From assembly GCA_028456385.1 (NCBI GenBank), contig JALNQF010000117.1, positions 1 to 64,000 of the forward strand: a stretch of 64,000 bases of DNA, given 5' to 3'. Positions 5,489-55,748 of the stretch are shown piece by piece (position 1 is the first letter of the stretch; every line of letters begins with the position of its first letter). Below the pieces are notes generated by a model. That model saw only the letters and a program-made list of their open reading frames with translations. It ran no database searches and was not told the origin of the DNA. Both the position numbers and the translations under genes were made by a program. This DNA comes from Ophiosphaerella korrae (taxonomy: Eukaryota > Ascomycota > Dothideomycetes > Pleosporales > Phaeosphaeriaceae).

Positions 5489-5706
5489 GGAGGGGGGTGG
5501 GTGTGGGGATTGTCTGTCCTTAACTTGGGATTTTGTTCCTGAGCATGGTGAACTTTGGGTCAGAGCGGCCAGGGTAGGGCTTGAGGGTGGATGGGAGAGG
5601 ATAAGAGATACGAGGATTCGTTGTTAATGGAAACTTGACCGACATTATTATTCTCTTGAGTATCCTAGACTCCAGTCCTTGAACCGAAGGGAAATGTATA
5701 GGGAAA

Positions 5707-9974: not shown

Positions 9975-11505
9975 ACTGCGTTCCACCTGCTACCCGGTGA
10001 GTTGCGGGACCGCCCTGGATGTGTAAGGCCGGAGCAAGCGCTGACAGATCCCACCTCAAGAGCGCCCGGAGACTCCGCCTCCCCCATCAATCTCCATACC
10101 CTTTACCCGCGACGCCGACTTCGTCGAGCGAGGCACGGCACTCCATCAGGTCTACCAAATATGCGCGGAACCGGGCTCGCGGGCTGCGCTCGTCGGCCTA
10201 GGCGGCGTAGGGTAAGCAGAAATGGGCTTTACCGGCGCTACATGCTAACCGCAGAGAAGCAAGTCGCAGCTCGCCATCGAGCATGCCTACCGCACCCATG
10301 AGCGGTCGCCGGAGACGCGGGTGTTTTGGGTGCACGCCAGCAATGCCGCCCGGTTCGAGCAGGGCTTCCGCGACATCGCTGACTACGTCAAGATCGCTGG
10401 GCGGCGAGATCCGCAGGCGAACATATTCAAGCTGGTGCACGACTGGCTGCGCAAGTGCAAGCAGCCATGGCTTCTCGTGCTCGATAACCTCGACGATGCT
10501 CGCTTTCTTCTCGGTGCTCAGGCTAACGATCGAGGCCAGAGTGCCGATCCAAAGAGCGCTGCTAGGCCGTTGCGCGAGTACCTCCCCTACTGCGAGCGCG
10601 GCTCGATCCTTGTAACAACGCGAAGCAAGGAAGCAGCGCTGAGGCTGGTTGAACGGCGCAACACCGTTTCTGTGGAACCTATGAATAAGGCAGAAGCGCT
10701 TGCGCTCTTTCAGAAGAAGCTGGTAGCGCAGGAGGATAGGGATGACCTTGCTGAGCTCTTAGTCGCGCTTGAGAACATGCCGTTCGCCATTGTGCAAGCT
10801 GCAGCGTACATCTCGCATAGAGCTCCCCAATACACAGTGGCGATGTACCTAGATGATTTTAGAAAGAGCGAGCGCAAGCGGGCAAGCCTGCTCTTCTATA
10901 ATGGCGGCCAGCTTCGGCGAGACCGGGAGGCGGAAGGCTCGATCATCGTTACTTGGCAGATATCGTTTGACTATATACAGTACACGCGACCATCTGCAGC
11001 CGATCTGCTCTCGCTAATGAGCCTTTTTGACCGACAAGGTATTCCAGAGGCTTTACTTCGGCCCCACACTAAACGAGAAGAAGCGCGGACAGCTCCGGAA
11101 GGGAAGGAAAATGATGGAGATAGCGACGCTAGAGACGACGTGTCGCAGTCAGGCACAGAGAACGACGAATTTGTAGAGGATGTGGCAATGCTGCAAAACT
11201 TCTGTTTCGTCTCTGTCAACACTACTGGCACCAGCTTTGAGATGCACGCACTAGTGCAGCTAGCGACGCGGAAGTGGCTTGAGGACAATAGCAAGCTTGA
11301 GTGGTGGAAGCAGCAGTTTGTTTGTAACCTCTGTGCAGCATTTCCGATTGGAAAGTACGAGAACTGGGCAGCATGTAAGGCACTTTTTCCACATGCCAGG
11401 TCGGCGGCAGGACAACCGCCAAAAGACGAGTCGTCGCTAGCAGAGTGGGCTACACTACTCTATCGCGCAGCATGGTATGCAGAGACGACGGGCAATATTG
11501 CCGAC

Positions 11506-12891
11506 GCTGCAACGCTAGCTATGAAGTCAATGAAAGCGCGGAAGAAGGTGCTGGGGCAAGAGCACGAGGACACGCTGTGGAGTATAGCAATGGTGGGACT
11601 GGTATACAGAGCTGGAGGCCGATGGGACGATGCCGAGAAGCTAGAGGTACAAGTGATGGAGACTCGCAAGATGAAGCTTGGAGCGGACCATCCTGACACG
11701 CTAACGAGCATGGCCAACCTAGCGTCGACATACAGGAACCAAGGCCGATGGGACGACGCTGAAAAGCTAGAGGTGCAAGTAGTAGAGACAAGCAAGATGA
11801 CACTAGGAGCAGACCATCCCGACACGCTAAGCAGTATGGCAAGCCTGGCTTTAACATACTGGAATAAAGGACGATGGGACGATGCTGAGGAGCTATTTGA
11901 GCAAGTAGTTGAGACTAGCAAGACAACATTAGGGGCAGACCATCCTTCTACGCTAAGCAGCATCTCTAACCTAGCATCGACACACCGGAATCAAGGCCGA
12001 TGAGATGAGGCTGAAAATCTAGAGGTGCAAGTTCTAGAGATGCGGAAGATCAAGCTGGGAGTGGACCATCCCTCTACGCTGAGTAGCATGGCCAACCTAG
12101 CGTCAACATACAGGAACCAAGGCCGATGGGACGACGCTGAAAAGCTAGAGGTGCAAGTAATGGAGACTTGTAAGATGAAGCTTGGAGCGGACCATCCTGA
12201 CACGCTGAGCAGTATGGCCAATTTAGCGTCGACATATAGGAACCAAGGTCGATGGGGCGATGCTGAGGAGCTACTTGTACAAGTAATGGAGACTTATAAG
12301 ATGAAGCTAGGAGCGGACCATCCTTCTACTCTGAGCAGCATGGCCAACCTAGCATTAACATACAAGAATCAAGGCCGATAGAACGATGCTGAGAAGCTGT
12401 TTGTGCAAGTTCTAGAGATGCGGAAGATGAAGCTGGGAGCGGACCATCCCTCTACGCTGAGCAGCATGGCCAACCTAGCGTCGACATATAGGAACCAAGG
12501 CCAATGGGACGATGCCGAGAGGCTAGAGGTGCAAGTGGTGGAGATGCGCAAGACAAAGCTTGGAGCCAGCCATCCTGACACGCTGACAAGCATGGCCAAC
12601 CTAGCGTCGACATATAGGAACCAAGGCCAATGGGACGATGCCGAGAAGCTAGAGGTACAAGTGGTGGAGGTGTGCAAGACAAAACTAGGAGCATACCACT
12701 CTGATACGCTATATAGTATGCACAACCTAGCTTCAACATATGTGAATCAAGGCCGATGGGACGACGCCGAGAAGCTGTTTGTGCAAGTAGTGGAGACAAG
12801 CAAGATAACACTAGGAGCAGACCATCCCAACACGCTGAGCAGCATGACCAGCCTAATGTCAACATACAGTAACCAAGGACAAAGGGGCAAG
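11506..12891 (+). repeat. Tandem 126-bp TPR-coding repeats (NLR1), about 11 units
   Basis: Eleven consecutive 42-codon units encode near-identical tetratricopeptide repeats; the best conserved are units 2, 5, 6, 8 and 9. Both early stops fall at the first base block after the NQGR sequence of units 4 and 7. High similarity between units suggests recent unit exchange or duplication. Confidence 0.85.
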
Positions 12892-13335
12892 GCCGAAGTT
12901 TTAAAAGTGCAATTGATAGAATGCAGAAATGGTTTGAGCAAAGAGGATACAATTAAGGACTCTGACGGTATCCCTAATATCTCTGATACACCTTCGCTCT
13001 TCTCTACAAACTCTTCTCTAGATAGCTGCTCATCTGTGGGGCTGTTTGGGGATATTCATTGGACGGCGACTCAATACCTGGCAAGCACACTATCCCAGGA
13101 TCCTTTTCTTCGGCCACTATATACTCGAGCTCTGCAAGAGATCGGGCCCAAACGATTCTCAACACATCATGACCGACTTCTGAAGAAGTTTTTGGCAGAC
13201 CTTCGATTAGAGAGGAAAGACTATATCCATCTGCAAGCTGTCCGCTTTCTCCGAAATCGATCGAGACGGGAAGAAGTGACGGCGCAGATTTGTCGATTCA
13301 ATCGACCACACTCTAGCCTTGCAGATCAGTAAAAA

Positions 13336-28378: not shown

Positions 28379-30454
28379 ATGGCCTTCCCTAGCACCAACA
28401 TCACCTTCGCGGGTGATAGCAACCTGGGACTGCAGGTAGGACACAACTCTGGCGCTATCCACGTTGCTGCGCCTTGACCAGCGCTGCGCTAACGTTCCTC
28501 TGTCCTCCAGATCGTCCCGAGACTCCACCACAGCCCTCGTGCTTCGTGCCGTTCCGCCGCGACCCTGAATTTGTCGACCGTAAAACGCTGCTTGACCAGA
28601 TATGCGAGCGATGCGCCGCGCCAGCATCTCGTGTCGCGCTGTTGAGCCTTGGCGGTGTGGGGTAAATTCAGCAGACGATCCCTGTGGTCAGCGCTCGCGC
28701 CTAACACAAGGCATAGAAAGCCCTAGCTAGCTGTCGAGCACTGCTATCGCACCGCTGAGCAGTCACCACAGACGTGGGTGTTCTGGACGCACGCCAGCAA
28801 CACCGCCCGACTCGAGCAGAGCTTCCGGGAGATAGCAGACCAGGCCAAGATTCGCGGCCGGAAGGACGCACAAGCAGATGTGTTTAAGCTAGTTCACGAC
28901 TGGCTCCACAGCGAGAAGAACGGGCGATGGCTGTTGGTCCTCGACAACGCCGACGATGCTAGCGTGCTCTCACCGCCACCAAGCAACAGTCAGAGTTCGC
29001 CGGCCGACGGCTTCACCGATGACGCCGGCGCCAGCACCAGCACCGGCGGCTTTCAGCGGCACTTATCCAAGTATCTGCCCCCGAGCAGGCATGGCTCAGT
29101 CCTTGTGACGAGCCGGACAAGGCGCGCGGCGAAGCAGATCGTGGAAGACAACGACGTTATATTGATCGAGCCAATGTACAATGCGGCTGCACAAGCTCTG
29201 CTTCGCAAGAAGCTAGGAGACGGGATTAACAAGAACGACGACATTGTCGAGCTAGCAGAGACGTTGGACTATATGCCTCTCGCTCTCGTGCAGGCGGCCA
29301 CATACATTCGAGAGCGAGCACCGCGATGCTCGGTACAGCAGTATCCTGCGGAGTACCGCAAAAGCGACAGCAGGAAGACGAGCCTGCTGAACCAGGCAGC
29401 TGGCCATCTTCGCCGCGACAAAGCAGCCAGCAACTCTATCATCATAACGTGGCAGATATCGTTCGATTACATGCAGAGCAAAAGGCAGTCAGCAGCGGAT
29501 CTGCTGTCGCTTATGAGCTTCTTCGACCGACAGGGGATTCAGGAAGCTCTACTTTGTAACCCAAGTAGTACAACAGACAATGAAGGGTTTGAAGATGATA
29601 TTGTCATATTGCGCAACTACTCCTTTATTACGGTTACAAGGGATGCGAACACGTTCGAGATGCACAGCCTAGCACAGCTAGCTACACGCACGTGCCTGGA
29701 GAACCAGGGTCAACTTGATAGGTGGCGGGGGCAATTTATCCCCAACCTGTGCGCAGAACTGCCTACAGGATAGCACGAGAACTGGCAGAAATGTCAAGTA
29801 CTGTTTCTACATGCGAGAGCGGCATTAGCATATCGGCCTCAAGACAAGGACTCGCTTAAGGAGTGGGCCTTGTTACTATACAACGCGGCGTGGTACGTAT
29901 GGCAACGAGGAAGAGTAGGCGAAGCAGAATATATGTCAACGGTATCGATGGAGGTCAGGCAGGAGGTGTTTGGGAAAGAAAATGCGGAGACGCTAAGCAG
30001 CATGGCAATGATCGGGCTAGCAAGAAATCTTGGAGGCAAGTACAAGGAGGCAGAAGCAATGAACAGGCAGACGCTAGCGCTAAAAGAGACGGTGCTTGGG
30101 CGTGAGCATCCTTCCACGCTGGTAAGTATGAGTAACTTAGCGGAAGTGCTGGGGCGCCAAGGCAAGTATGAGGAGGCGGAAGCAATGAACAGGCAGACGC
30201 TGGTGCTGTCAGAGACGGTGCTTAGGCGTAAGCATCTAGACACGCTGACAAGCATATACTGCCGCGCCCAACTTCTCACAAAGCTGCATTACTACCACGA
30301 GTCTCTTGCCCTTTACGAAAGAGCATGCGCTGGGTATCACATTGTCTTTGGGGAGGATCACTTAACAACTCGTGCGTGTCACCAACATTATACTATGACT
30401 AGAATATATGCAACAGAAAACCAGCATTCACCCGTACTCGCTCCAGCAGCATAG
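28379..30454 (+). pseudogene. NLR2: NB-ARC/TPR protein paired with the HeLo gene, inactivated
   Basis: Exon 1 starts at 28379; exon 2 is 28511-28661 (151 nt, exactly the size of NLR1 exon 2); exon 3 starts at 28717 and runs to 30454. Residues 10-27 are the motif FAGDSNLGLQVGHNSGAI. The domain order is motif, RPETPP linker, NB-ARC (LLVLDNADD, VLVTSRTR, MPLALVQAA), MHS-like FEMHSLAQLAT, then about four TPR units. Lesions: no GT donor is visible at the end of exon 1; the P-loop reads GGVGKP followed at once by TAG (28724-28726) where Ser-Gln is expected; and TAG at 29771-29773. The rest of the frame is open. The product would have been the sensor of the HeLo effector. Confidence 0.8.
28406..28459 (+). 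other. Amyloid-like motif of NLR2
   Basis: Codons 10-27 after the ATG at 28379. Matched to the C-terminal motif of the divergent HeLo gene. Confidence 0.65.
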
Positions 30455-34559: not shown

Positions 34560-37495
34560 GTGTTGCCTAGTGTTAAGGCACTTACCTGCACAAATTCCCA
34601 GGAGCTCAATTTCCAGAACGTAAAGTTCAATCGAATCCAACCCCTCAATTAGTCATGCCTCCGTTTCAATCTCCACGGAAATATTGGATCGGAGGCCAGA
34701 GAGTGCTTGTAGACCTGGCCTAGCTCGACGGTTACCCGTGTTCCGGGTACTCCGAAGACTAACCACAAGGACTTCGACTGCTGAGGGCTGTTCTGCGGGG
34801 AAGCGTTACTATTGGGTGGGTTTTGGGCTCCTCCTGGGGATCCTCCGGAGCCGGAATTATTTATATATTGCCCACTGTTTGTAGGTGTAGAGCCCGTACT
34901 AGGCTGGGCTTGCCTTTGAGGATTCGGAGCGCGTGATGTTTGGGTCCCGGATCTAGGTGTGGAACTAGAATGTTGCGTGTGGTGCGTTGCACGCCGATTT
35001 TGTGATGATTTGAGTGAAGCGCACAGGGGCCAGCGCAGTAATTTCGCCGAATGTTGGCTGGGAAGATCTTTGGTAGTTTCCTTTCTTGCTGGATGAGTCC
35101 GTAGAAGATCTTCCAGAATTTCCCTCTGCGCAGGTCTCAACTAGCGCCAGCTGGTAGTGCCGGATATCTGATAAATTAGCATAGGGACATCTTGAAATCA
35201 TGAAAGAGGTGCTTACACATTGCCAAAAGACGCGTGTCTCTTCGTGACGTAGCGGGCGCATTCGCGGCGACAATGGCCACTAGTCCCATTCCAACCCAGT
35301 GATATCCTCCAAGCAGCCCTGAATTGTGTTGACGACAACGGATTTTGTGTACGGCTCAAAGGCTATATGGTCCTTTGGAATGGGTAATACATCTTTAAGG
35401 AGACCGTCCGGGAGAAGGAATGCCTTGAGGCCGAGAAGCATGTCTTGTAAAGGCTGGCTTTCGACTAGTGCTTGTATGACTTGGTGATGCTCAAATGTTG
35501 TCAAGGTCGTGGGACTTGCGTCTTTTCTATCGTTCAGGTAGTCCGTAAGATCTTCATCGTTACTCGACTCTGCGTAATCATTCACTACATTATCCTCATC
35601 ATTGATATCATTTATTTTTTCATGAAACTTTGTATTTCTCTTGCGTTTCGGAATTTCCATGTCAGAATCTGGGCTGTCACCTCGTTCTCCCTTCTCGTGT
35701 AATCTAGCTCTCGAGTCTTTGTCCAGCCACATTTTCCACCGTTCATCCCGAAGTTTCTCCTGCTCTTGGAAGTCATCTTCTTCAAAAATCGTTTGTTTAT
35801 CAGAAATCTGTCGTCCCGTCTTACGCCGATAACCTTTGATTATTCTTTCCGCTATCCTGTGCTGATCCTTTCTGAACCTCAACGGCGCCTTTAGTTTATG
35901 TGTTACTGCCCTTGTAGGCAATGTCGAGATGCCCCTTTCGAAGACCCTTAACAGACGTCGATAGTTGTTGATAAATCTATCCTCTGTCATTAATTGTAAA
36001 CCCTTCTCGTACAGAGGAGCTAGCAGGTTGTTGCTCGCAAGGATATGGACGACTGCGGTTTCGAACTCGGTTTCTGGTTAGGTCTCGTGAATCTCATAGG
36101 GTTCATTATCTCCCTTAGATATCAGTGACTTGGTGTCTGCATAACCCCTTGCTAAGGAAGCGCCCTCACCAACCATCAAATCATCATTCGTTCTTTCGGG
36201 TACGGCCGCTAGAACCAAAGTTTCCCCTGAGACACTGAACTGTTGGACATTGACTATGATGCCTCCAAATATAGAGATATCGCAACCGTTGGACCCTGAT
36301 GCCAGAATCTCGCCATCAGGCGAGAAGGCCACGGCGTTGACGCTGCAAGAGTGGCCCTCGAGCGTGCTGTGCAGCGCGCCTGCCCCTACGCCCCACAGCC
36401 GCACCGTCTGGTCGTCGGAGACGGACGCGACCAGTTTCCCGTCTAGCGAGAAGGCCAGCGCGTTGATGAAGGGGGAGCGGCCGTCGTGCGTACTACGACT
36501 CGCATCCCAATCTGTTTCCTTTTCTGGCAACACTTAGCAGACGATTGGGCAGCAGTGCGCGCAAACGTTGACTTTCCTGTACCAGCTATACCGCTCAACC
36601 AGAATATAGGTTTACTATCCTTGTTATTCGCCCATTCTGCAACAGTCTTCAGCAGCTCAGTGCAGGTGCCTGGCAGGCATCGTGCGTTTTGTTCTTCGGC
36701 ATGCCCGTTAAAGGAAGCGCTTGTTGCAATAGGTAACACGAAAAGATATTGTTGCCCTGTATCTTCGTCGATTTGAGCTCGAAGCCGTCTCAGCGCATCA
36801 TCTTCTCCTTCGTCATGAACAAGAGGCAAAAAAATGCCAAAAATACCCAGTAGACAATACGCTTTCTCCTCCATTGTTGTTTAGCGGCTTGTTGCCTACA
36901 GCAGCCGCTCATTAACGCTAAAGCCTTGTAGGGATGCGCCTCGAAGTGCTGAAAGAGCAATACCCGTTATTTCGTGGATTTGCTGCTCTAGACTTCGCTT
37001 GTTACCAAGATGTTGGCCCTTCTGTGAAAAGAACTCGACAGAACGAGCAAGAAGCTCTGGCAGGGCCCAGCCCCTCTAGAGCCACTGGCTCGCTCGAAAC
37101 GCTGATTCCTAGGCAAAGTTGGAGTCTTCACTAAGAGCTTTCTGCTTGGTTATTGACACGTCCGATAAAAAGACGTAGCGCTTGGCCGCATCCCGATACC
37201 AGCGAAACATGAAGTTGATCGCATACTGAAGCTCGACGTGGTCTGCCTTGTTGATGCAGCAGGTATCTACCCAAAAGTATTGTAGATGGTCGCGTTGAGC
37301 CTCTTGTCCACAAAACTGAATCTTGTCGTAACCCGTCTTGTCCTTTCCTGTGCCGTCGATCACATCTTTGTAGGTAACCTCTTGACCATGGTGTCAGGTG
37401 TGTGGCAGTATCGCGTGGGGCGGGATTACATCGTTGCCGATAAAGTCCTTGGTAAAGCTGAGCTCGCCGTCACCGCCGCGCTTCAGGAGCCGCAT
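34560..37495 (-). pseudogene. NLR3: HET-NACHT-WD40 gene, deleted and full of nonsense codons
   Basis: From the ATG at 37495 the frame gives the HET domain: DVIPPHAILPHT, YFWVDTCCINKADHVELQYAI, FRWYRDAAKRYVFLSDV, RSLEQQIHEITGIALSAL and EKAYCLLGIFGIFLPLV. Then the NACHT start (ARCLPGTCTELL, IFWLSGIAGTGKSTFARTA) is fused after about 15 residues to two WD40 units (EGHSCSVNAVAFSPDGEILASGS), so most of NACHT and the array is deleted. A C-terminal region (35990-34560) like that after NLR1 follows. In-frame stops occur at 37394 (TGA), 37109, 37076, 36896 (TAG), 36881 (TAA), 36078 (TAA), 35280, 35141 (TAG) and 34649 (TAA); nearly all sit at expected Trp or Gln codons. HET proteins trigger incompatibility cell death. 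Confidence 0.8.
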
Positions 37496-38110: not shown

Positions 38111-41100
38111 TTATAACTTGAATGTTTCTTCAGAGTCTATAGTGCATACCCATACCCTACCAGATGCTGTGCCAATACCGATTATATTACCTGATACAGC
38201 TGAGCGGAGCGGACGATACTCTTGTGGGAGCCACAGTAGGTTCTTTGAATTAAATGTTATCCATATGTTGTCCGAACTAAGTGCTGTATGCTGAAATTGA
38301 GGAGGTTGAGGTGTGGCGACTGTTGCAACATTTGGGACTACTAAGGAACTGATAAGGATTGGACCAATGTTAGTGCTAAGGTAAGAGCCAGTGGCGTCAA
38401 ATGATATACTATGAAGATTCTGACTAATATTGAGCTTCTGCAAGCACACGCCGCTGCCAGCGTCCCAGATCTTGACCGTGTGGTCGTCCGACGCCGACGC
38501 CAGCCGTGTCGAGTTGTGAGAAAAGGCCACCAAGTTGACATAATCGCTATGGCCTTTGAGTGTCTGCAAGCATGCGCCGCTGCCGGCGTCCCAGATCTTG
38601 ACCGTGCAGTCGGCCGACGCCGATGCCAGCCGTGTCGAGTCGTGAGAGAAGGCCACCGATTTGACATAATGGCTATGGCCTTCGAGTGTCTGCAAGCATG
38701 CGCCGCTGCCGGCGTCCCAGATCTTGACCGTGCGGTTGCTCAACGCCGACGCCAGCCGCGTCGAGTCGTGAGAGAAGGCCACCGAGTTGACATAACGGCT
38801 ATGGCCTTCGAGTGTCTGCAAGCATGCGCCGCTGCCAGCGTCCCAGATCTTGACCGTGCGGTCGGCCGACGCCGACGCCAGCCGCGTCGAGTCGTGAGAG
38901 AAGGCCACCGATTTGACATAACCGCTATGGCCTTCTAGTGTCTGCAAGCATGCGCCGCTGCCGGCGTCCCAGATCTTGACCGTGCAGTCGTACGACGCCG
39001 ACGCCAGCCGCGTCGAGTTGTGAGAGAAGGCCACCGATTTGACATAATGGCTATGGCCTTTGAGTGTCTGCAAGCACACGCCGCTGCCAGCGTCCCAGAT
39101 CTTGACCGTGCAGTCGTACGACGCCGACGCCAGCCGCGTCGAGTCGTGAGAGAAGACCACCGATTTGACATAATGGCTATGGCCTTCGAGCGTCTGCAGC
39201 AACACTTTCCATTTCTCCTCAACCCTTGGCGGCCTTCGAATCCATCTAGGTATATAGCTTTTAAAAATTTTCTTTAATATGCTCGTCGCTGGTGCAAATA
39301 CGAGCCCGCTATACTTCTGAAGAGGCGCCTGCTCAATCGCTGCCCGGCTGTAAAGAACAAACCGCTTTGCATCGTGGATTAAACTTAAGAGGGAAGGGCA
39401 ATTGCTGGACTAGCTAAATTGTTAGCGAAATATTGTTTTCTGTGCTGCCGGCATACTAACGGAGACAAACAACTCGAGAGATGTAATGGCATGAATTCCT
39501 TCTGGTACTTTCCCCATCCACCCAAGAGCCTCAAGCCAGTGAACGAGGTGATTCTGTAAGAATTGGTGCACTTGGTCATTGTCGTTAGGCTGGGCACCGC
39601 TCTTCTGGAGATGCTGTATCCAGTATAGACATGCATACTGCAGCTCTGGAGGAAGGGCTCGCTCAACTTGGCTTCTCTGTATGTCGGCGACAAGCATGCC
39701 AGGAGCACCCACGCCACAGATGTCTTGCTTAAGAGAGATGGCCATAAGCTTGATGCAGTCATCTGCCAAGGTCTGATGCGCCTGCTTCTTGTCTACCCAG
39801 AAGTTAGCATCGCCGCATCTGTCTTTGTCGAGGAGGAAGTCCCGAAATGATGGATGATGTAGCCCAAGTGGGTGAGTGTCGAGTTTTGGGATGTCCAGAA
39901 TGGCATGAAGGTCCTTTAGCACAGGATTGAATCTTTGCTTTGATATACTGAGCAGCTTCTGGAGCGAAGTGGCAGAAAGCTGAGAGAAGAGGACTACGAT
40001 ACTTCCAGGGATGCGCCGCAGAATGCCGTACAATGCGTCTTTTTCTTTTGCTGAGTAGCTCTGCCGGACAGACTTTCTCAAGACGGTAGTGTATAGCTCG
40101 TTCAGGTGCTTTTCTGGGTGCTCTCTAGGTGCTCCCATTGAGATGCTACCTTCCAGCAAAGTTTGCACGCTTTCATCAGCGAAGGCGCTTTCTTCAATAA
40201 ACCGGCATGCGGTCGCTGCCCAGATGAACAGGCCACCTGCAATCTGGATTAAGCGTCGGATAACCTCTTCACTAGGCCAGGCAACGTCCAAACCGTGTTC
40301 CTCTTCGATGATTTTGAACTTGTACTTGAAGTAAACATAAATATCGTTGTCCACGATCTGTAGTGCGATATTGTGGAGCACAAAGTCCTGGTGTTCAGCA
40401 TCTGGCATTTTGATAATGTTGTTTCGAATCGGAATCTCCGGGCGGCTCGTTAGGAAAACCCGTAATTGGAACTTCTCCAACACTCGAATGCTAGCCAAGA
40501 TGTGTATGATAGTCTGGATGTTGTCGTCGTTATCGCACTCATCCAGCGCATCCAGAGTGAGGACGTACGGGGCCCGGTCGCTATTTTCATCTAGCTTCGA
40601 CAGCGGACGCAAGACGAGTTGCTGCCACTGGTCGCGGAGAGACTCGCTCGCAATGTCGGGGCGCTCTGCGATAGCATCGCATATGTGTTGGTCAAGAGAC
40701 GGTATGCTGCTCGCCAGCTGCAATGCAATGCTCGTGACGAACTTGCTTGCATTGCCGACGTCTCCACCACCATGCGAGAAGAAGAAGCTGGCCCCAAGGC
40801 GCTTCTGGCCGAAGAATCTACGGGCGACCGTGCGGGCAACCGTCGACTTCCCCGTGCCGGCCAACCCGTTTAGCCAGAAGATGCGCCGCTCGTCTTGTCC
40901 GTCAGCCCAACTATATATCTCGCGCAACAGGTCGACGCGTGTATTCTGCAGGCAGGTGGATTCGTGTTGGTTTGAGTACGAGTTGAACAGCGCATCTGCG
41001 GCATAGGGAAGCCGACTGAGAAGGCTATCTAGTCCGATGAGCGCACTGTCAGCTGCGGTCTTTTGGCGGCCGGATTCTCCCGCAACGTACCAGGGGGAAG

Positions 41101-41184
41101 TTGGAGCGTGGTATTGACCGAGCCGTAGATGATGCCGGCCTGCAAGCTATGGTTTCCATCGCCAAACGCGATCTTAGAAGACAT
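38111..41184 (-). CDS. NLR4: NACHT-WD40 protein with N-terminal amyloid-like motif
   Basis: Exons 41184-41091 (94 nt, as in NLR1), 41028-39461 and 39409-38111 join in frame (introns 62 and 51 nt with ctgac and ctaac branch sites), giving 986 residues with no stops. Residues 7-24 are the motif FGDGNHSLQAGIIYGSVN. NACHT follows: GLAGTGKST (86-94), LTLDALDECD Walker B, VFLTSRPE sensor, HPSFRDFL, and the usual RFVLYSRAAIEQAPLQ block. Then six 42-residue WD40 units of very high identity and a degenerate seventh blade with a long tail. It looks like a functional HET-E/NWD-class STAND receptor: the repeats sense a ligand and NACHT oligomerisation templates a downstream effector. No cognate effector with the same motif was found in the window. 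Confidence 0.85.
38444..39199 (-). repeat. Tandem 126-bp WD40-coding repeats (NLR4), six units
   Basis: Six units of 42 codons, consensus GHS-YVKSVAFSHDSTRLA. Differences cluster at repeat positions after GHS (H, G, R, D), at K/N two later, and at the triplet before TVKIWDAGSG (YDC, ADR, SNR, ADC, DDH). Confidence 0.9.
41113..41166 (-). other. Amyloid-like motif of NLR4
   Basis: Codons 7-24 of NLR4. Shares F-G-D-x-N, LQAGII and G-x-V-N with NLR1, forming a subtype distinct from the NLR2/HeLo motif. Confidence 0.5.
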
Positions 41185-41904: not shown

Positions 41905-42297
41905 ACGTGTCCGTGCACTCAATGCACGCGGAACACCATTTTCAACACCACAAAGATGAGGCTGTAGAGTCACCCACAGTAGCTATTATTACGAGATTAT
42001 GTAGAGGAGCAGTAACTAGAGGCTTGTGAGTCATTTAGACTATCTGAATTTTGCTGGAAGGCTGACGTTGCGGCTAGAGCGAGTAGTTTTGAGTAGAGCT
42101 GCTGATGCAGCTACTGGAGACTCCTTACTGCCTATAGCATCAACTACCTGTTTGCTGCGCTTGCTCTTCTGAGTGGATAAACTTGAAGCCTTTCTCTTCT
42201 GCCTCTGGCCGGGTTGTATACAGTTTTTGGTATTGATGGCTGCGCGCTGGGTTGCGTGCTGAGCCGCCTTATCTGCCCTCTCCTTCTCCCTTGCTAA
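41905..42297 (-). mobile_element. Pogo-like transposase C-terminal tail and 3' flank (copy B)
   Basis: Better preserved than copy A at 18685. On the minus strand it is open from about 42297 to a stop near 42048 and reads REKERADKAAQHATQRAA, then a Lys/Ser-rich tail ending in LPAKFR. This is the usual basic C-terminus after the DDE domain in Fot1/pogo transposases. The rest of the element is missing. Confidence 0.65.
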
Positions 42298-42687
42298 CGA
42301 CTACTAGTCCCGGCTGGTGCGAAACAGCTACATAATCATCACAGTGTACCCCGCAATTTACTTAGTGGCTGCCGGGCCTGTGGCGTTGTGAAGTCTTGGC
42401 AAGCGGGCCGACCCTAGCCTGCGATCCAACTCAACCTTGGCCATGCCTCCAGTCAACCAACTCACCTCTTGCAGAATTCGCCACCTCACAAGGGTGTGGC
42501 CGGAGCGGGTCGTCCATCCTTCCTACCAACGGTGGCGAAATCCCACTGCGGCCCACGCCATATGCTGACACATCAATCCAGAGTTACATGCACTTCATAT
42601 ACTTCAGATGTACAGCTGTTCCTACATACCCAAATGGCTAGCTAACTTGCACTCACGATTAAGTTGAATATAGAGATAAAAAAGCGT
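42298..42687. other. Spacer, nothing recognised
   Basis: Between the pogo fragment and the complete element. Only a short unrecognised frame (42396-42641). Confidence 0.45.
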
Positions 42688-42745
42688 TAACGTATTCTAT
42701 CACCGAAACCGACAAATCACCGGAACCGACAACTTTCCTTGGCAC
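42688..42745 (+). repeat. Left terminal inverted repeat (58 bp)
   Basis: Inverted match to 44483-44540 with two mismatches, both C/T differences. First two bases are the TA target. Confidence 0.95.
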
Positions 42746-44482
42746 TACGAACACTACTTCTACACCGCCATGTCACAACAACAACAAAAAAATACGCCTG
42801 CGTATGAAGGTAGAGTAGAGCTTGCCCTTAAAGCTTTATCTCTAGGCCAATTCTAAAGCCAGCGACGCGCTGCTGAAGTGTTTAACGTTGATTATCATCG
42901 CCTCTCTAACTAACTTAAAGGAATCACACTACGGGCAATTGCAACTGCTAACTACTAGAAACTTACTTCTAACGAAGAGCAGACAATTATTAACTATATC
43001 CTCGACCTCGACCGACGAGGATTTGCCCCCCAGCTCTACGAGGTAGCTAATATAGCTAATAAACTACTAGCAGTATAGGATAGAATACCTATAGGCAAGT
43101 GCTAGCCTACACGCTTTGTAAGGCGCTTAGACAAACTAAAGATAGCGTTTAACTAAGCAAAGGATCGCTAGAGAATACTCTAGGAAGACCCTAAGGTTAT
43201 TAGCTTGTAGTTTAAGCTTGTAGAGGACACTAAGGCCTAGTATAGGGTAGTAGATAAGGACGTCTATAACTTTAATAAGACTAGCTTCTAGATAGGAGTA
43301 ATTAGGTTAATAAAGGTCGTTACGGGCTTAGAGAGGCGTTAACGACCTACGCTTACTTAGGGCAGTAATCGCGAGTAGGCTATAGTAATCTAGGGCATCT
43401 ACGCAGTAGGGTACGCTATCCCGCTATTTATTATCTACAAAGGGCGCGTCTACATCTCTACCTAGTATAAGGAGATAGGTATACTACTAGACTAGAAGCT
43501 CTTAGTCTCTAAGAACAGCTAGATAATAAATCTACTTAGCCTAGAGTAGTTAAAGCACTTTAACGCGTATACAAAGACGCGCTAGGTAGGGGTATACTAG
43601 CTACTTATCTTAGACGGCTACGAGAGCTACCTTAACTAGGATTTTAAGGATTATTACCTTAAAAACAAAATCTTTACCTTCTATATGCCCTCTTATTCGT
43701 CGTATATCCTCTAGCTACTTAATGTAGTGTGCTTCTCGCCGTTAAAGCGCAAGTACTCTAATTGCGTACAGGACTTAGTATAGAAACGCGTATTCTACAT
43801 TAACAAGGAAGGCTTCCTCTCTACCTTTAGAGACGCGTTTTTAGACGTGTTTATAGAGGAGAACTATAAGAAGGCCTTTAAGGCTTTAGGACTTATCCCC
43901 CTAGACGCGTAGTAAGTGCTAGATTGCCTTAACGTGCGCATTTGTACCCTACTAGGACCCTTACTACTAGAGACGCTATAGCAGTCGAAGACTCTAAGTA
44001 ATATGCTTGAATTTAGGTCTTAGTTAAAGCTTGTAAAGGAATCCTTTGTATAATCCCTTAAAACTATATATACTAGCCTCTCCTAGCTTATTAAAGGTAC
44101 TAAACTACTACTACACTACAATGCACTCTAAGATACCCACATTAAAGAGCTTGAAGAGCAAGTAGATAGGCTTACCTAGCAGAAATTGCGCAAAAGAAAG
44201 CGAATTTAGCACAGCAGTACAATAGAGTATAGAACAGGAGCAATACAGGCAGCTGCAGAGGGGTTAAGGGGTGCGCAGAGAGGGAAAAAGGCTCGTAGTA
44301 GGGGTAATCAGGAACAGGCTCAGCCAGGTCAACGGCGCTATAGGAACTATAGGAAGATAGGGCACAACGCACGAACGTGCTAGGAAGGTAAAGAAGAGAC
44401 TTCTGAATCAGATAGTAGTGTTATAGTAGTAGGGAGTACTAAGTAAAGTTTGTTGTTAACCCCCAAAGAGGTGGTGTTCGCA

Positions 44483-44540
44483 GTGCCAAGGAAAGTTGTC
44501 AGTTCCGGTGATTTGTCGGTTTCGGTAATAGAATACGTTA
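44483..44540 (-). repeat. Right terminal inverted repeat (58 bp)
   Basis: Inverted match to 42688-42745; ends in TA. Confidence 0.95.
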
Positions 44541-44678
44541 TCCTCTAATCCAATTGTTCTATAACACTGTATAGGAAGCGTTGTCATTCTTCCTGCATCT
44601 TCTGCACCAGAGACCAGTAGTGCCGGGAGCATACTAGAGCTAACGGTTTATCCAGACGTTTTTGCGTACAGCACCTAC

Positions 44679-45692
44679 TCAGGAGGCGTGAAAATCCGAC
44701 TCTCTGGCCATCCAAGCCTCATCCCCGTCCATATAACTAACTAAACCCGGAATCTTGTAGTCTTCAGGTTTCACAGCAATGAAGTTGTCGAGCTTATATT
44801 CCGGCTTGCTTTCATATTTCCCGTGAAAGGTAGCTCCTGTCGTGACGTACTCGCTTTCCACTGCCTTGCTGCCGAACCAGCTTGTCTTGTAGTAGAAGAG
44901 TCTCAGACACTGGATGCCGACCACAATATCGCTTGATTCTGTGAAGGCATAGACGGGTTTGTTCTCCACCTTCCCCTCCGCCTTTGGTCCCACTTTCACG
45001 ACTCCCTCAGGAGGATTGACTCCAGCTGAGATTTTGCCTTCGATATTGCTGCTCTTCTCAACTTTCACAGTCACTCCCTTCGCCACTTTGAGTCCGGTGA
45101 TGAGATGCACGGATTTCTTGTACCGACGGCCCTTCAAGTAGTCGTCCACATCAGAGAGCGCTATACACGACGAGATGTAGCTCAGCGTAGGATAAAAATA
45201 CTCCGTATCGAGGTTATCAAACGAGTATCTATAGCCACACTAGTTAGCAAGTAAGACTTTGAGGGTGGTTCTTGCGTCGCGGAAGAGGGGAGGAAGAGGA
45301 GCAGGGCGCGGCGAGCTCGTTGTTCGAGGCTTCCAACCATGGAAGCAATAAACATACAAATAGATCAGGAGTACCTACGTATCGGTGTCATTACGTGCGG
45401 CGGAGATATTGGCTTCGGCGCCGATACCTTGGATGCCCATGACCTTTGCCCACAAGCCGAGTTCGCCGCTCCTCAGTTGGCTTCTCGTAGCTGTAAATTT
45501 GCCTTTGTGATTTAAATAGATATCTGTGTCAATATTTATTCTCTTATCCGCTCCCTGATTAAGTGGTGCCATCTGCTCTTTTTGCTCAAAGTCCTTCAGC
45601 ACCGTTCCAAGGTGGAACGGCCCCTTTGGAGGAGGCACCGTCGAGAAGTTCGGGGGAAGGTGGTAGGTTGGCTTCGCGTCGCTCATCTTCAA
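44679..45692 (-). CDS. Fungal gasdermin-like pore-forming protein (RCD-1/HET-Q1 family)
   Basis: Exon 1 45692-45379 and exon 2 45228-44679 join in frame over a 150-nt intron (gtaggt..tag), giving 287 residues; HET-Q1 has about 278. An in-frame ATG two codons in (45686) is an alternative start. Family blocks in order: PFHLGTVLKDF (about 25-35), FTATRSQLRSGELGLWAK (about 67-84), FDNLDTEYFYPTLSYI (about 108-123), DDYLKGRRYKKSVHLITGLK (about 133-152), then a strand-rich half. The last 35-45 residues (from about 245) form the short C-terminal part that in HET-Q1 is removed by a protease to start membrane pore formation. The frame is intact. The S8-protease gene lies 705 bases upstream on the same strand. 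Known role of the family: regulated cell death at non-self recognition; here inferred. Confidence 0.9.
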
Positions 45693-46397
45693 CTATCAAG
45701 AGTAGCTCTTGATTTCCACGGTGCGTGTTACGTGAGTGTAGGGTCGTGATACTTGTCGATTGACAAAGAAGCTCTCATGAGCGAGAAACCGAACTATGTA
45801 TTTATAGGCCTGACATATTAGTACGCGCCCCCACCGTTCGTTCTGGTGAAGAGCTGAAACATTCCGAACGTTAGGTGGGATGCGGGATCAGCTACACGAA
45901 CCACCCCAGCTGGCCCCCTGGCGCGCTACGATCGTTGATCTGATTGGCTCGAATGATGTTCTGGCTTTTTTTTTGCTTTTTGCTGCATGATGGTTACCCC
46001 GCTCCCGACTCCTGTGCTCCCTCTCACATCGCGAAACTGAGGGCAAGTCCAACTGCCGCCGCACCCCACTGGGTCTGACCAAACACGAATGCCTAGACTG
46101 AGAGGCCTTTAAAAAGATAGAACAGAACAGACCCATACAATCATATCCTACTAGTTTGGAGGTAGCTACGCTCCTGTTAGGCTGACCGGTTAGGGTTGGT
46201 GACGAATAGGTTTGGTCGTGATTTTGGCGACATGAAATGATCCACCACGAAAAGGCGCTGAGAATGGGGGCCTATCAAGCTAGAAAATGAAGCTACCGTA
46301 CTTGATTCGACTGTTGGCGTGACGTGTTCTTTTCTACCGCCACTACGTGTACCTAGGTAGGTATTTGCTGTTATATGTACCGGCCAAGACATCGATA
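45693..46397. promoter_or_regulatory. Intergenic region upstream of the gasdermin gene
   Basis: About 700 bases between the protease stop and the gasdermin start. It must contain the gasdermin promoter. A TATA-like tatttata lies at 45798-45805, on the minus strand about 110 bases before the ATG. A short frame at 46136-45888 is not recognised. Confidence 0.45.
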
Positions 46398-49268
46398 TTA
46401 CCCTCTCGCGCACTCCCGTATCAACTCGATGATTTTTGCCTCAGAGTTTTCCGCCGTCCACAGATGACATGGCATTATATAATCGTAGCCGCCGCGTGCC
46501 TCCGCATTTTTCTCAACCATCAGTCTTAGAATCTGACACACCCCGTTGTAGTGGTGTAAAACAGTCTGTTCATGCTCGCTTAGCTCACACTTGTGCCTGG
46601 CAAATTCAAGCACGTTTGCAATGAGAGCTGCGGCAATCGGCGTGGCAAAGGACGTTCCTGAGATGTGGCTTTCAACCCCTTGCCACTTGGAAGGGATGCA
46701 GATGCCTAGCGTTGAGAAGTTATCCTTCTTTTTCAGAGGCGTAGGGCTGATGAGGCCATCATTACCAACACCATCGCTGGCATGAATGCAAATTACCCCG
46801 TGGTTCCTACTGGATGGGTACGCACGGGGCTTGTTACCCCCAGAATTCGAAGCCGCGGCGAAGATGCTGATGTTTAAGCTGACTGCGGCATGGATGGCTA
46901 CATCTATGTCGGTGTCTCGAATGCCGGACTCCAAGCCGAGGGACATAGAGATTATGTGCACCTTCTTCTCGATTGCCCACCGGATTGCCTGATATGCATT
47001 AGCTAATAATCTTACTCACTTGGCGTCGTACTAACTCTTGCTATGCGATGCAAATCCGTCCGGTTAATCGTTTTATCGTCCGTGATTTTCGCAATGAATA
47101 CTTCTGCCGACGGCGCCGCGTTCAACACAAGTCTGGCAACGCGTGTTCCGTGGCCAAACTTGTCCTGGACATCGTTCGGATCTGGAGCTGCGTCCAGTCC
47201 ATTCACGAATCCACCACATTCTTGTATACGTTTGTCATCTAGTGCTTCTTTAATGATATTATCGTTTTTATCAATTCCAGTGTCGATTATCATGATCCGA
47301 ATCTTGTCTGCACGCCATGGTGCCCAGAGAGGGATACTCTTGTTTTTCTCGGTCAGTAGCTCGATGGTTTCGGCAAATTTCTCGAGCTCTTCCACGAATT
47401 TCTCTGCATTTTTGACTTTTCTATATGATCATAAAATGTCAGGAATTTCCCAACTGTTATGAGTACACCAGTAATACTCACTGGAGGTCAGGCGTCATCA
47501 TTTCTTTGCCGTCAAACAATTCCAATCCGGAGCTGGACGCTGGCTGTCCGGTGCGGGGTGCTGGAATTGAGGGGTTTGGAGCAGATCTTGGGAGTTCGCC
47601 AAAGAGCTCAGACGCGGCTCGAAAACCGTTTGTGACGAGTCGGTAGAGTGGAGCGAGGATGTACCTGTACATCGCCGCCGTCCTTCTCTTCTCTTGCGTC
47701 AACGATGGATCGTAGAACTTCTCGGACAGTTGTCGAAAAATGAGACATGCTGTAGCAATGTCCTTGTACCCGTCATCCACATAGCCGGCCCATTCCTCCA
47801 GAACCCTCTTCAACATGCTGTCCCTGGATGGCCTGTCGCTTCCCCATTCCGCGTCTTCTTTCTTCGGCTCTGCAAGCCGCTTAGCTTCCATTTCCATAAG
47901 AAGAAGGCCAAACGAAAGTACAGCAACATTTTCATCCTCTTCGCCGTCCAGCGATGCAAGAGAACAAGAAACGTGTGGCTTCCAGCGTTCCAATAAATTG
48001 AGAGTTTCCGTGACTCTCAATGATACAGTGTCGACGGTCAAGCCTAACTTGACCCAACGACTCTTGTCCAAGTTCAATAAGGAGTAGGCGATGAGAAGCT
48101 CAACAACTCGTCGATCACGCTGCTCGAATTCAGCCATGTCTGAGTTCGAGTTATGGCGTCTGGAAAGTAATAATTCATGGAGCGTTGGGTCGGTAACTGA
48201 CTCCGGCAGGTGTGACGTTTCGATGTCGTGATTTTCATCATCCCATATAGCATCCTGATTAAAGGCTATGTGTATTTGTTGGGAGGCTGTCGATCCTTGG
48301 AGATTGGCACAAGCGAGATGCTCCCGGCATTTTGTTCCGATTTGGTTGGGAATGGTGGTCCTACTTTATTGTCAAACAGAAGCATAAAAGGCACTAGAAC
48401 GACGTCCTCACCAGGTACACTTAGCGAAGTTCCATTTCTGCCGCCCGCAGTCTCTGAATCGAAGCCGGAAATTGATATCGGAGGCTAGGAAGCCGGAAAG
48501 GTGTAGCCGGGCTTCGTGGCTCTCGGTACATGCAAAACCGTTCGCGAGCAGAGCGAATAGAGTTCGGGACCAACTATTCAGATGATATGCCTTCTGAATA
48601 AAACTGATTTCTTCGTGCGTAAGCTGCGCGGCGTTTCCCAGATTCCTTTGCAGAGCCGCCACAGGGTCCATAAAAATTTTGTCTACTGCGGTTCGAAACT
48701 CGCGTATTTTCTGTACAATGGCTGCTAAGCTGTACTCTTGCTGAAAGTTGATGTGCGTCGCTAGCTCGACTAAAGTAGCCTTATGGGACAAATCGGGGTC
48801 CGTGAGTGTTTCAGAGCTCGTAATTGAGCCCCTGAGTACACTCGTCAAGGTCAATAGCTTTCTGAACCTCGACTGCAACTTCTCGTGCTTGTAAGGTTTA
48901 GTAACATGTGTAATTATCTCAGCCGAGGCTCTTACTTCAGCTTTCTCTTCAGGGTCTTCTAAGTGTGACCGTCGATTGTCGTAGATGTTTAGTACCTTCT
49001 CATCGACTAGCGTCTCAAGGACTTTGAGCAGGGCATCCAGGGCCTGGGAGAACTTTGTGTCGTCGAGTTTAGACTTGTCGAAATCGGCACTCGGAAAGCT
49101 GAGGGGTATCGCAGAGACGTTATGGCGGAGCTTGGTGATATTGTCTTTCATGGGCCGGCTGAAACCGCTTGTTCTGTGGGCGTTCTCGGGCAGCGCTTGC
49201 TTCAAAACGGGGTGGAGAGCGACGAAGAATTTCCAGAGCACTTGCCCGCCGGCCGTAACCTCCCCCAT
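46398..49268 (-). CDS. Subtilisin-like (S8) serine protease with large N-terminal regulatory region (HET-Q2 type)
   Basis: Exons 49268-48412, 48360-47482, 47420-47036 and 46988-46398 join in frame (introns 51, 61, 47, 47 nt), giving 903 residues. Residues 1-285 are helical (ALHPVLKQALPENAHR, ARLHLSGFLAS). Residues about 286-570 resemble the fungal DUF7580-like region (RRVVELLIAYSLLNLDKSRW, RYILAPLYRLVTNGF). The C-terminal third is a subtilase with all catalytic residues: Asp625 in MIIDTG, His669 in FGHGT, Ser820 in SGTSFATP, and oxyanion Asn755 in AASNSG. No signal peptide is seen, so it should act in the cytosol. Next to the gasdermin gene it fits the HET-Q2 role, a protease that cleaves gasdermin. 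The exon 1 donor (gtgagg) is the least certain splice site. Confidence 0.85.
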
Positions 49269-52600: not shown

Positions 52601-55600
52601 GCATGCTCCTGTTTGGGATTCCACACAAGGACCTAGTAGTAGACGATATCCAGAAGATGGTGGCTGGACAGGATAGCCATCCGCGGGGTGCGCTGCTTGA
52701 GCAGATCAGATCCAAATCTGACTTATTCGCGCTTCAGCTGGCGGATTTCAAGAATCTCGTCCAAGACCGAAAGGTCGTAAATTTCTATGAAACGCGCCAG
52801 ACCAGACAGCTTGAATTTGTATGATGCCCAGGAGGTCATGAAACAACAGCGGGTTGCTAATAGTATGTAACAGGACAGCGAAAGCAGACGCTGGAAGCGA
52901 ACGGGCGGCTTCGTCACGGCCGTCGATACCGACTCAGCTCTCCTCCAGCTGCCAGACTCTATAGGGGACAAGATGCCTCTGGACGCCGACCACTCGATGA
53001 TGGTCAAGTTCGAGACCAGGAACCACCGAGGGTACCGCAGTGTGCGAGACAAGCTGTTACAATTTGAGCGGGATGCTCCAAGTGTGGTTGCGGCTCGTTT
53101 CTGTACGTAGCATTCTTGTCTGCCGCCCTTATGTTTACTCCTAGCTAATTCCGACCGGGTGCAGCGCGAGCGCAAAACACGCCTAAGCCTTCTATGGTCC
53201 CCTTCGAGAGGGATCGCGCATTCGTGGGCCGGAATGACATTCTGGAAGAGTTGCGGAAGAAATTCGAACAAGAGGCGCCACAGGACCACGCTCGAGTGGC
53301 CCTCATTGGTCTCGGCGGTGTCGGGTAAGTATATCTATACATTCTAGCGTAGATCACGCTCATACTCTGGCTAGGAAGTCCCAGATTGCTATCGAATACG
53401 CATACAGAGTGAGAGAATTAGCATCGCAGACCTGGATGTTTTGGGTGCATGCAAGCAACGCTATCCGATTTGAGCAAGCGTATAGGAATATTGCTGCCAA
53501 GGTCGAACTTCCCGGCCGCGATGATCCCAAGACTGACATCCTCCAGTCAGTGCACAACTGGTTGTGCGACGAAAGAAACGGCCGATGGCTTATGATACTA
53601 GACAATGCCGACGACGACGGCGTTTTCTTTGCTGATGACAGAGATACTGTAGGTTCTGTGCGGACGATTAATGCGACGGACCACAGGAAGCCGCTCGAGA
53701 GCTTCCTCCCTCAGACACCAAACGGAACGATTCTGATCACGTCTAGGAACAGGACTGTAGCAATCAACCTCGTTGGCGGACACGGCGAGGTTGTCCAGGT
53801 GCAGCCAATGGGCGAAGACGAGGCGCTGGCGCTGGTGCACGCGCTTGAACGAATACCGCTAGCCATTACGCATGCTGCGGCGTACATCAAGACACGAGCT
53901 TCTACAACTACCTTATCCAGCTATCTCGAGTTGTTCCAGGAGAGCGAAGCGAACGAGATGCACTTGCTTGGCAGGAAAGAGTGGAAAGACAACCGGCGAG
54001 ACCACAGTATCCGAGATGCGGTGATCGCAACATGGCATATCTCGTTCAAATATATCCAGACGACAGAGCCGCGGGCAGCAAACCTGCTTGCGCTGATGAG
54101 CATGTTCGACAAGCAGGGCATACCGCGATGGTTGGTGCAGGGCACGACCAGCCACCTGGACTTTGAGGACGCTCTAGCGCCGCTACTTAGCTTTTCGCTG
54201 GTAGGGACAGAGATAGGCAAGCAAGTGTTAGGGATGCATCGGCTAGTGCAGCTATCGATGAGGAGGTGGCTGGAGGGCGAGAAGGAGCTGGGCAAGTGGG
54301 TGAAGCGGTCGATCGCAGCCCTCGACGAAGCATTTCCGAACGGAGACTACGAGACGTGGGAGGCGTGCGAAGCGCTGCTTCCGCACTTGAGAGTGGTAGT
54401 TGGCTACGCAGCAGAAGAGGAGGACATACTAGGCCAGGCTCGCTGCAGTCTAAAAGCTGGATGGTATCTCCTGCTAAAGGGGGAGTATACAGCGGCAGAG
54501 AGGTTTCTGCGACTATCACTCGAGGTTAGAGAGAAAGTGCTCGGACGCGAGCACCCCGACACGCTCACCAGCGTCAGCCAGCTTGGGTCGGTGCTCGAGA
54601 GCCAGGGAAGGTACGAAGAGGCAGAGGCGATGCATCGTCAAGCGCTAGAAGGGCATGAGAAAGTTCTTGGGCGAGAGCACCCTCACACGTTCGCTAGCGT
54701 CAGCAACCTTGGGTCAGTGCTGGAGAGCCAGGGAAAGTACGAAGAGGCGAAGGCGATGCATCGTCGAGCGCTAGAAGGGCATGAGAAGGTGCTTGGGCGA
54801 AAGCATTCGAACACGCTCACTAGCGTTGGCCAGCTTGGGTCGGTACTGCAGAGCCAGGGAAAGTACAAAGAGGCGGAGGCGATGCAGCGTCGAGCGCTAA
54901 GAGGAAGAGAGAAGGTGCTTGGGCGAGAGCATCCGGACACGCTTACTAGTGTCAGCCAACTTGGGTCAGTACTAGAGAGCCAGGGAAAGTGCGAAGAGGC
55001 GGAGGCGATGCATCGACGAGCGCTAGAAGGGTACGAGAAAGTGCTTGGGCGAGAGCATCCGAACACGCTTACCAGCGTCAGCCGGCTTGGGTTGGTGTTA
55101 GAGGGCCAGGGAAATTACAAAGAGGCGGAGGCGATGCATCGTCGAGCGCTGGAAGGAAGAGAGAAGGTGCTTGGGCGAGAGCATCCGGCTACGCTCGCTG
55201 GTGTCAGCAACCTTGGGTCAGTGCTAGAGAGCCAGGGAAAGTACGAAGAGGCGGAGGCGATGCAGCGTCGAGCGCTAGAAGGAAGAGAGAAGGTGCTTGG
55301 GCGAGAGCACCCGGACACGCTCACTAGTGTCAGCCAACTTGGGTCAGTACTAGAGAGCCAGGGAAAGTGCGAAAAGGCGGAGGCGATGCAGCGTCGAGCG
55401 CTGGAAGGAAGAGAGAAGGTGCTTGGGAGAGAGCATCCGGACACGCTCACTAGCGTTGGCCAGCTTGGGTCGGTGCTGTCGAGGCAGGGAAAGTACAAAG
55501 AGGCGGAGGCGATGCAACGTCGAGCGCTAGAAGGAAGAGAGAAGGTGCTTGGGCGAGAGCATCCGAACACGCTCACCAGTGTATATCACCTAGCCTTCCT

Positions 55601-55748
55601 CTTCCACCAACAGCAGAGTTATACCGCTGCAGTAAGACTCTACAACCGAGCATACAGTGGGTACTTAAAGGTGCTTAGCGGAAACCATCCTACAACAAAA
55701 GCGTGCTTAAACCACTACATGTCCGCTTTGAGAAAGGAAGGACCATAG
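49635..55748 (+). CDS. NLR5: C2H2 region / SesB-like hydrolase / NB-ARC / TPR fusion receptor
   Basis: Nine exons join in frame: 49635-49965, 50033-50705, 50763-52073, 52128-52353, 52420-52479, 52528-52818, 52874-53102, 53165-53324, 53375-55748 (introns 48-67 nt, most with clear branch sites); 1,884 residues. Residues 1-330: helical region and CPYCARRLP. Residues 335-450: C2H2-type block (YVCLSEECISPLLFF, WVNHMNSVHSKQWNRKIHMS, YSCSLCNCIP). From about 675: SesB-like lead (FRVTGLPAS) and alpha/beta hydrolase with VIAITGLDGHAYGSW and nucleophile Ser859 in IAHSFG. P-loop GLGGVGKS at about 1089-1096, Walker B LMILDNADD, LITSRNR, IPLAITHAAAYI. TPR from about 1465. The motif block EALALVHALERIPLA is about 20 residues shorter than in NLR1 and NLR2. 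Hydrolase-NB-ARC-TPR is known; the zinc-finger part in the same exon is unusual. Confidence 0.85.
54482..55741 (+). repeat. Tandem 126-bp TPR-coding repeats (NLR5), ten units
   Basis: Ten 42-codon units, consensus AEAM-RRALEGREKVLGREHP. Units 2-8 are nearly identical at the DNA level, which predicts copy-number change between strains. Variation lies mainly at H/Q before RRAL, at G-R/H/Y, and at SQ/GQ/RL/NL before LGSVL. Confidence 0.9.

Follow-up and report, generated by a model that had tools for sequence, protein, structure and literature searches.

A gasdermin gene next to a multidomain subtilisin-type protease gene in Ophiosphaerella korrae: a probable fungal gasdermin/Q2L cell-death module

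Two-gene clusters consisting of a gasdermin gene and a Q2L gene were reportedly described in fungi by Clave et al. in 2022. According to reviews, some 80% of the gasdermin genes of fungi have a protease gene clustered with them (about 63% S8, 19% CHAT), and 18 architectures account for about a third of the approximately 1500 Q2L proteins (PMC10197012). In Podospora anserina, het-Q1 and het-Q2 are idiomorphs, i.e., different genes at one locus (PMC12881547), HET-Q2 has a length of 388 residues (PMC10989679), and het-Q was proposed to derive from a rearrangement that made a sensor constitutively active (PMC10197012). The trigger of RCD-1 is the encounter with its antagonistic allele instead of cleavage (PMC12881547), and in bacterial operons a gasdermin is found beside a protease (PMC10197012). 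One review regards the triggers of the gasdermin/protease class as an open question (PMC12881547). Here we describe a gasdermin gene and a protease gene on a contig of the fungus Ophiosphaerella korrae (JALNQF010000117.1). The stretch that was analysed (64,000 nucleotides, positions 1 to 64,000 of the forward strand) is referred to as the window, and its gene content is fungal.

The two genes, which are listed with their features in Table 1, very probably constitute one fungal gasdermin/Q2L cell-death module. This view is based on the gene models, on homology, on the folds of relatives, on intact catalytic residues, on repeated adjacency of the two gene types, on indirect linkage in other fungi, and on correlated divergence. 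As in the described gasdermin/Q2L clusters (PMC10197012, PMC12881547, PMC10989679), the S8 gene is less than 10 kb away from the gasdermin gene (711 bases), the protease is a multidomain protein and the gasdermin tail is short, and we found no difference that breaks the class. The pair belongs, as an ordinary case, to the common co-encoded gasdermin/Q2L class and does not constitute a new type of system. It is of value as a clean, intact example in which a candidate cleavage site (Phe237) can be tested and a candidate for the receptor domain (DUF7580) can be named.

In the mechanism that we propose, the upstream gene would encode a multidomain sensor-protease in which an N-terminal region is followed by DUF7580, whose ancestry is possibly kinase-like, and by a subtilisin at the C-terminus; the downstream gene would encode an inactive gasdermin restrained by its tail of about 48 residues. 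A signal, for which non-self, virus or damage are candidates, would trigger the sensor part, and the subtilisin would then cut the gasdermin linker, with Phe237 of the conserved block G-A-x-F as the most likely P1 residue. Upon release of the tail the core would insert as a pore in the plasma membrane, and the cell would die. We infer a cytosolic location, just as we do the trigger and the natural role.

Table 1. Positions of the two genes, their parts and the adjacent mutated stretch in the window
Feature	Position	Strand	Basis
Fungal gasdermin gene, 285 aa	44679..45686	-	Splice model, phmmer match to RCD-1-1, relatives, fold of P0001
Gasdermin exons	45379-45686, 44679-45228	-	Splice model
Gasdermin intron	45229-45378	-	Splice model
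G234-A235-T236-F237 block in core-to-tail linker, predicted cleavage site (P1 = Phe237)	44826..44837	-	Conservation
Predicted inhibitory tail, C-terminal 48 residues + stop, 5.57 kDa	44679..44825	-	Computed mass; Trp275 nearly invariant
Q2L-type protease gene, probably 887 aa	46398..49268	-	Gene model, 9 relatives
Protease exons	48936-49268, 48412-48887, 47482-48360, 47036-47420, 46398-46988	-	
In-frame intron, 48 bases	48888..48935	-	Not in 9 relatives; GT..AG and TACTAAAC
DUF7580 (PF24476), proposed sensor/regulatory domain	47643..48566	-	Pfam E=2.8e-26, residues 235-525 of 903-aa model
Peptidase S8 (subtilase) catalytic domain with Asp, His, Asn, Ser	46557..47305	-	
Spacer, protease stop to gasdermin start, 711 bases	45687..46397	.	
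RIP-like mutated stretch, ends just downstream of gasdermin gene	42001..44650	.	Composite RIP index

The gasdermin frame runs unbroken from an ATG at 45686 to the stop codon that ends at 44679. We place the start at this ATG, and hence the gap to the protease gene at 711 bases, because the best relative (P0001, 285 residues) shares the same start Met in the alignment. The original prediction correctly described an intact frame with a protease gene upstream on the same strand, while its length of 287 residues came from a TTG at 45692, two codons before the ATG, and its gap of 705 bases has to be corrected accordingly. A phmmer search against PDB sequences retrieved RCD-1-1 (E=3.6e-5) and RCD-1-2 (E=2e-4), which demonstrates sequence homology to characterised fungal gasdermins. 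In total 56 gasdermin relatives were found, the best with 78% identity across the full length, the value also obtained for the gasdermin of Lophiotrema nucula. Of the profile searches that had been suggested for the two families, that for Peptidase_S8 was successful with the protease (E=3.7e-21), whereas the gasdermin had no Pfam match at E<=10, although phmmer finds RCD-1-1.

The structure prediction that had been suggested as a further check did reveal a gasdermin fold in the model of a relative: the predicted model of P0001 resembles RCD-1, which points to a pore-forming fold, and the bacterial gasdermin structures 7n50, 7n51 and 7n52 were also matched. Bacterial gasdermins are distant in sequence from the window gasdermin, and bacterial gasdermin operons have other protease partners. 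RCD-1-1 and RCD-1-2 of Neurospora crassa share the gasdermin core with the window protein in sequence and fold, but the latter also possesses a tail in which a candidate cut site is present.

The protease gene encodes an S8 domain with its catalytic residues, as is typical for Q2L proteins, and DUF7580 would be the additional domain of the sensor type. The 903-residue model of the original prediction was reproduced together with its Asp625, His669, Asn755 and Ser820. The length is nevertheless probably 887 residues, because the 16-residue stretch VRASAEIITHVTKPYK is missing from all nine aligned relatives and corresponds to a 48-base GT..AG intron with the branch site TACTAAAC. In the 887-residue model the triad is found at positions 609/653/804 and the Asn at 739; the unspliced frame is likewise open. 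The nine relatives (P0057-P0065) show 43-87% identity at 97-100% query coverage, and a further protein search using the protease alignment added one distant match. In two fold searches with the protease model all 50 matches listed in each were of the subtilisin type, as judged by their titles.

The state of the sequence also bears on the possibility that the pair is a relic, a non-functional copy with open frames whose module is no longer in use. A stretch with signs of repeat-induced point mutation (RIP) ends directly downstream of the gasdermin gene, with a composite index of 1.37 for positions 42001-44000 and 1.88 for 43000-44650, and some of the remaining gasdermin loci in the genome are fragmentary (C185, C14) or contain stops (C846). 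Within the two genes, however, the index is negative (-0.19 for the gasdermin gene, -0.55 for the protease gene), the four catalytic positions are intact, both frames are unbroken, and the identity to the Lophiotrema nucula gasdermin extends over the full length. A broken pair was rejected on the basis of the frames, the catalytic residues and the RIP indices, and we regard a disused module as unlikely.

The pair had been predicted to be of the HET-Q1/HET-Q2 type. This is appropriate with regard to the biochemistry, since a gasdermin is combined with a probable subtilisin activator as in Podospora anserina, but not with regard to the genetics. A true het-Q-like vegetative incompatibility locus would imply that other strains carry only one of the genes and that fusion unites them. 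Podospora het-Q does use the same two protein families (PMC12881547), and the RIP-like stretch and the genes of the NOD-like receptor (NLR) type nearby form a neighbourhood in which het genes might arise. In contrast to the alternative genes het-Q1 and het-Q2, the window genes are together on one contig of one genome, where permanent activity of a protease like HET-Q2 would be lethal to the bearer, and pairs on equal-sized contigs recur across other genera. Moreover, about 600 residues precede the S8 domain in the window protease, compared to 388 residues for the entire HET-Q2 (PMC10989679); with about 887 residues the window protease is about 500 residues longer and carries DUF7580, a length that would fit the unrearranged form. 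We rejected the idiomorph reading because both genes are on one contig and the protease has more than twice the length of HET-Q2, and consider an incompatibility locus of this kind very unlikely.

Support for a functional link within one gasdermin/Q2L module comes from the rest of the genome. The assembly (63 Mb, 974 contigs) was searched with four gasdermin queries, which resulted in ten gasdermin loci, some of them weak. We merged 24 Peptidase_S8 rows to 19 loci, and adjacent DUF7580 and S8 matches on the same strand were counted as one gene; the counts are lower bounds. At least seven loci have DUF7580 and S8 close together on the same strand (C21, C22, C40, C113, C223, C569, C669). A gasdermin adjoins all seven, in several orientations, and an S8 locus lies no more than 5 kb away from 7 of the 10 gasdermin loci, compared to 0.03 expected. 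The S8 stretches of several of the other six pairs show a stop in the six-frame search, for which introns or decay are possible reasons.

Clustering of gasdermin and protease genes in other fungi, to which the original prediction had referred, agrees with the published proportion of about 80% (PMC10197012) and is indirectly supported by our own data. For seven of the nine protease relatives the longest contig has exactly the same size as that of a gasdermin relative: Lophiotrema (215347), Penicillium pancosmium (22005), Fusarium austroafricanum (16170), Xylariaceae FL0255 (625363), Trichoderma evansii (1033202), Apiospora TS-2023a (2839916; tags 012858 and 012859) and one more (5041), in which the gasdermin relative P0019 is a 161-residue piece. 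In addition, gasdermin and protease divergence is correlated among nine fungi including the window (r=0.77, with 3 of 20000 permutations as high). Subtilases serve many roles, and the genes might be chance neighbours with a protease that acts on another substrate. Given the seven of seven DUF7580-S8 loci that adjoin a gasdermin, the excess over the 0.03 expected and the matched contig sizes, we rejected a chance neighbourhood, which appears extremely unlikely.

An eighth S8 locus was observed at C180 (L039:4163-5016 (+), 5141-6061 (-)), convergent with a weak gasdermin candidate (E=0.02); the nearest listed DUF7580 is about 24 kb off. The three remaining gasdermin loci, at C846 (L035), C185 (L036:4296-4680) and C14 (L037:3993-4490), have no adjacent S8 match. 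Those at C185 and C14 are fragments, and the C846 gasdermin carries in-frame TAG codons, 3 or 5 depending on the search.

A candidate cut site lies between core and tail of the gasdermin. Conservation was analysed in alignment A1, which contains 31 of the 56 gasdermin relatives (A3: 39 of 56); those excluded were mostly partial or short, plus the full-length P0006. Counting was done on the 32 rows of A1 including the window and on six paralogs from the same genome that have the region. A block G-A-x-[F/L/M] stands out in the linker, with Gly in 31/32, Ala in 32/32 and Phe, Leu or Met at position 237 in 32/32 rows. The mean frequency of the top residue is 0.83 at positions 234-237, compared to 0.48 immediately N-terminal and 0.34 immediately C-terminal of the block, the flanking linker being poorly conserved. 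In the six paralogs the column of Phe237 contains Leu (4) or Phe (2). Trp275 of the tail is nearly invariant in A1. Residues 229-248 of the P0001 model, which join core and tail, have a predicted local distance difference test (pLDDT) value below 50, i.e., they form a low-confidence linker. Subtilisins favour large hydrophobic P1 residues, and a cut after Phe237, the likely site as predicted from conservation, would release 48 residues (5.57 kDa). HET-Q1 (278 aa) is cut at P1 Phe238 and loses 40 residues or about 5 kDa (PMC10989679); going by these reported figures, the window gasdermin is similar with 285 aa, candidate Phe237, 48 residues and 5.6 kDa.

Several points weigh against this site and against the module as a whole. 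Gly-Ala precedes the Phe237 column in just three of the six divergent paralogs, the conserved block could be structural instead of a cleavage site, and a shallow alignment may explain why the pLDDT of the linker is low. The fold evidence comes from models of relatives, and the protease model is weak beyond the S8 domain (mean pLDDT 52.9). Equal contig size is an indirect test of linkage, and two of the nine protease relatives (Apiospora arundinis, Stachybotrys chartarum) have no matching contig size; both were kept in the divergence test, and the species tree alone could yield correlated divergence.

DUF7580 may act as the sensor of the protease. With a mixed profile of this domain, made from fusion and non-fusion sequences of the same genome and of relatives, all 36 PDB sequences matched at E<=10 were protein kinases (best 7.4e-6), among them 19 Src and 1 MLKL. 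Other comparisons count against a kinase-like nature: the fusion-only profile gave no PDB sequence match at E<=10, the non-fusion profile a lone kinase match with E=2, and hhalign of DUF7580 profiles against four kinases of the same genome resulted in probabilities of 14.9% and 0.4% (negative control with the gasdermin profile, 0.1%). Fusion and non-fusion DUF7580 align with each other over the full domain (97.3%, E=1.9e-11). Judged from this mixed signal at the family level, kinase-like ancestry of DUF7580 is likely but unproven. The idea is not wholly new, because "other predicted kinase-like domains" are mentioned as possible fusion partners of such proteases (PMC12881547); the term DUF7580 was not found in the literature searched.

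As a tentative and rather doubtful extension, DUF7580 might be a catalytically dead kinase-like receptor domain in two fungal death pathways, on the one hand fused to a subtilisin that opens gasdermin, here and at six other loci, on the other hand placed after membrane domains of the HeLo type, in a layout like that of MLKL. Opening of gasdermins by these proteases would then take place at a single conserved site in the linker, where P1 is a large hydrophobic residue (G-A-x-[F/L/M] here), and HET-Q2 would be a protease that became constitutively active by losing its receptor part. Provided that DUF7580 is kinase-like and that HeLo proteins share it, gasdermin and HeLo death in fungi would both be fed by one type of sensor.

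Among further DUF7580 loci, L050:44-2239 (+) shows a partial HeLo match followed by DUF7580, which overlaps a Pkinase match (1.7e-5, below its cut-off), an MLKL-like layout. L047:1556-3937 (-) and L048:112-2367 (+) are single open frames with a Pkinase domain and a C-terminal DUF7580.

The neighbours of the pair had been described as mostly dead. This is only partly correct, as it applies to the strongly RIP-like stretch downstream but not to several neighbours of the NLR type, whose open frames are long (836 residues in one case). NLR-like frames (DUF7779/TPR, NACHT/WD40) are located at 10249-13329, 28727-30451 and 53238-55745 on the plus strand and at 36081-36880 and 38114-41146 on the minus strand. 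Because the genome contains at least 151 NACHT-type matches, their presence in the window is not striking by itself. An Rfam search of the window gave no matches at the gathering score. By hand count among the matches listed, an NLR match lies within 20 kb of at least four of the seven gasdermin/protease loci (P=0.004 or 0.019, depending on the assumed NLR number). A fungal defence island of gasdermin/protease loci and NLRs is only a lead, and NLRs may cluster by themselves. NB-ARC matches with identical scores and frame lengths occur on C509 and C908 as well as on C255 and C806, and represent either recent duplicates or unmerged haplotype contigs.

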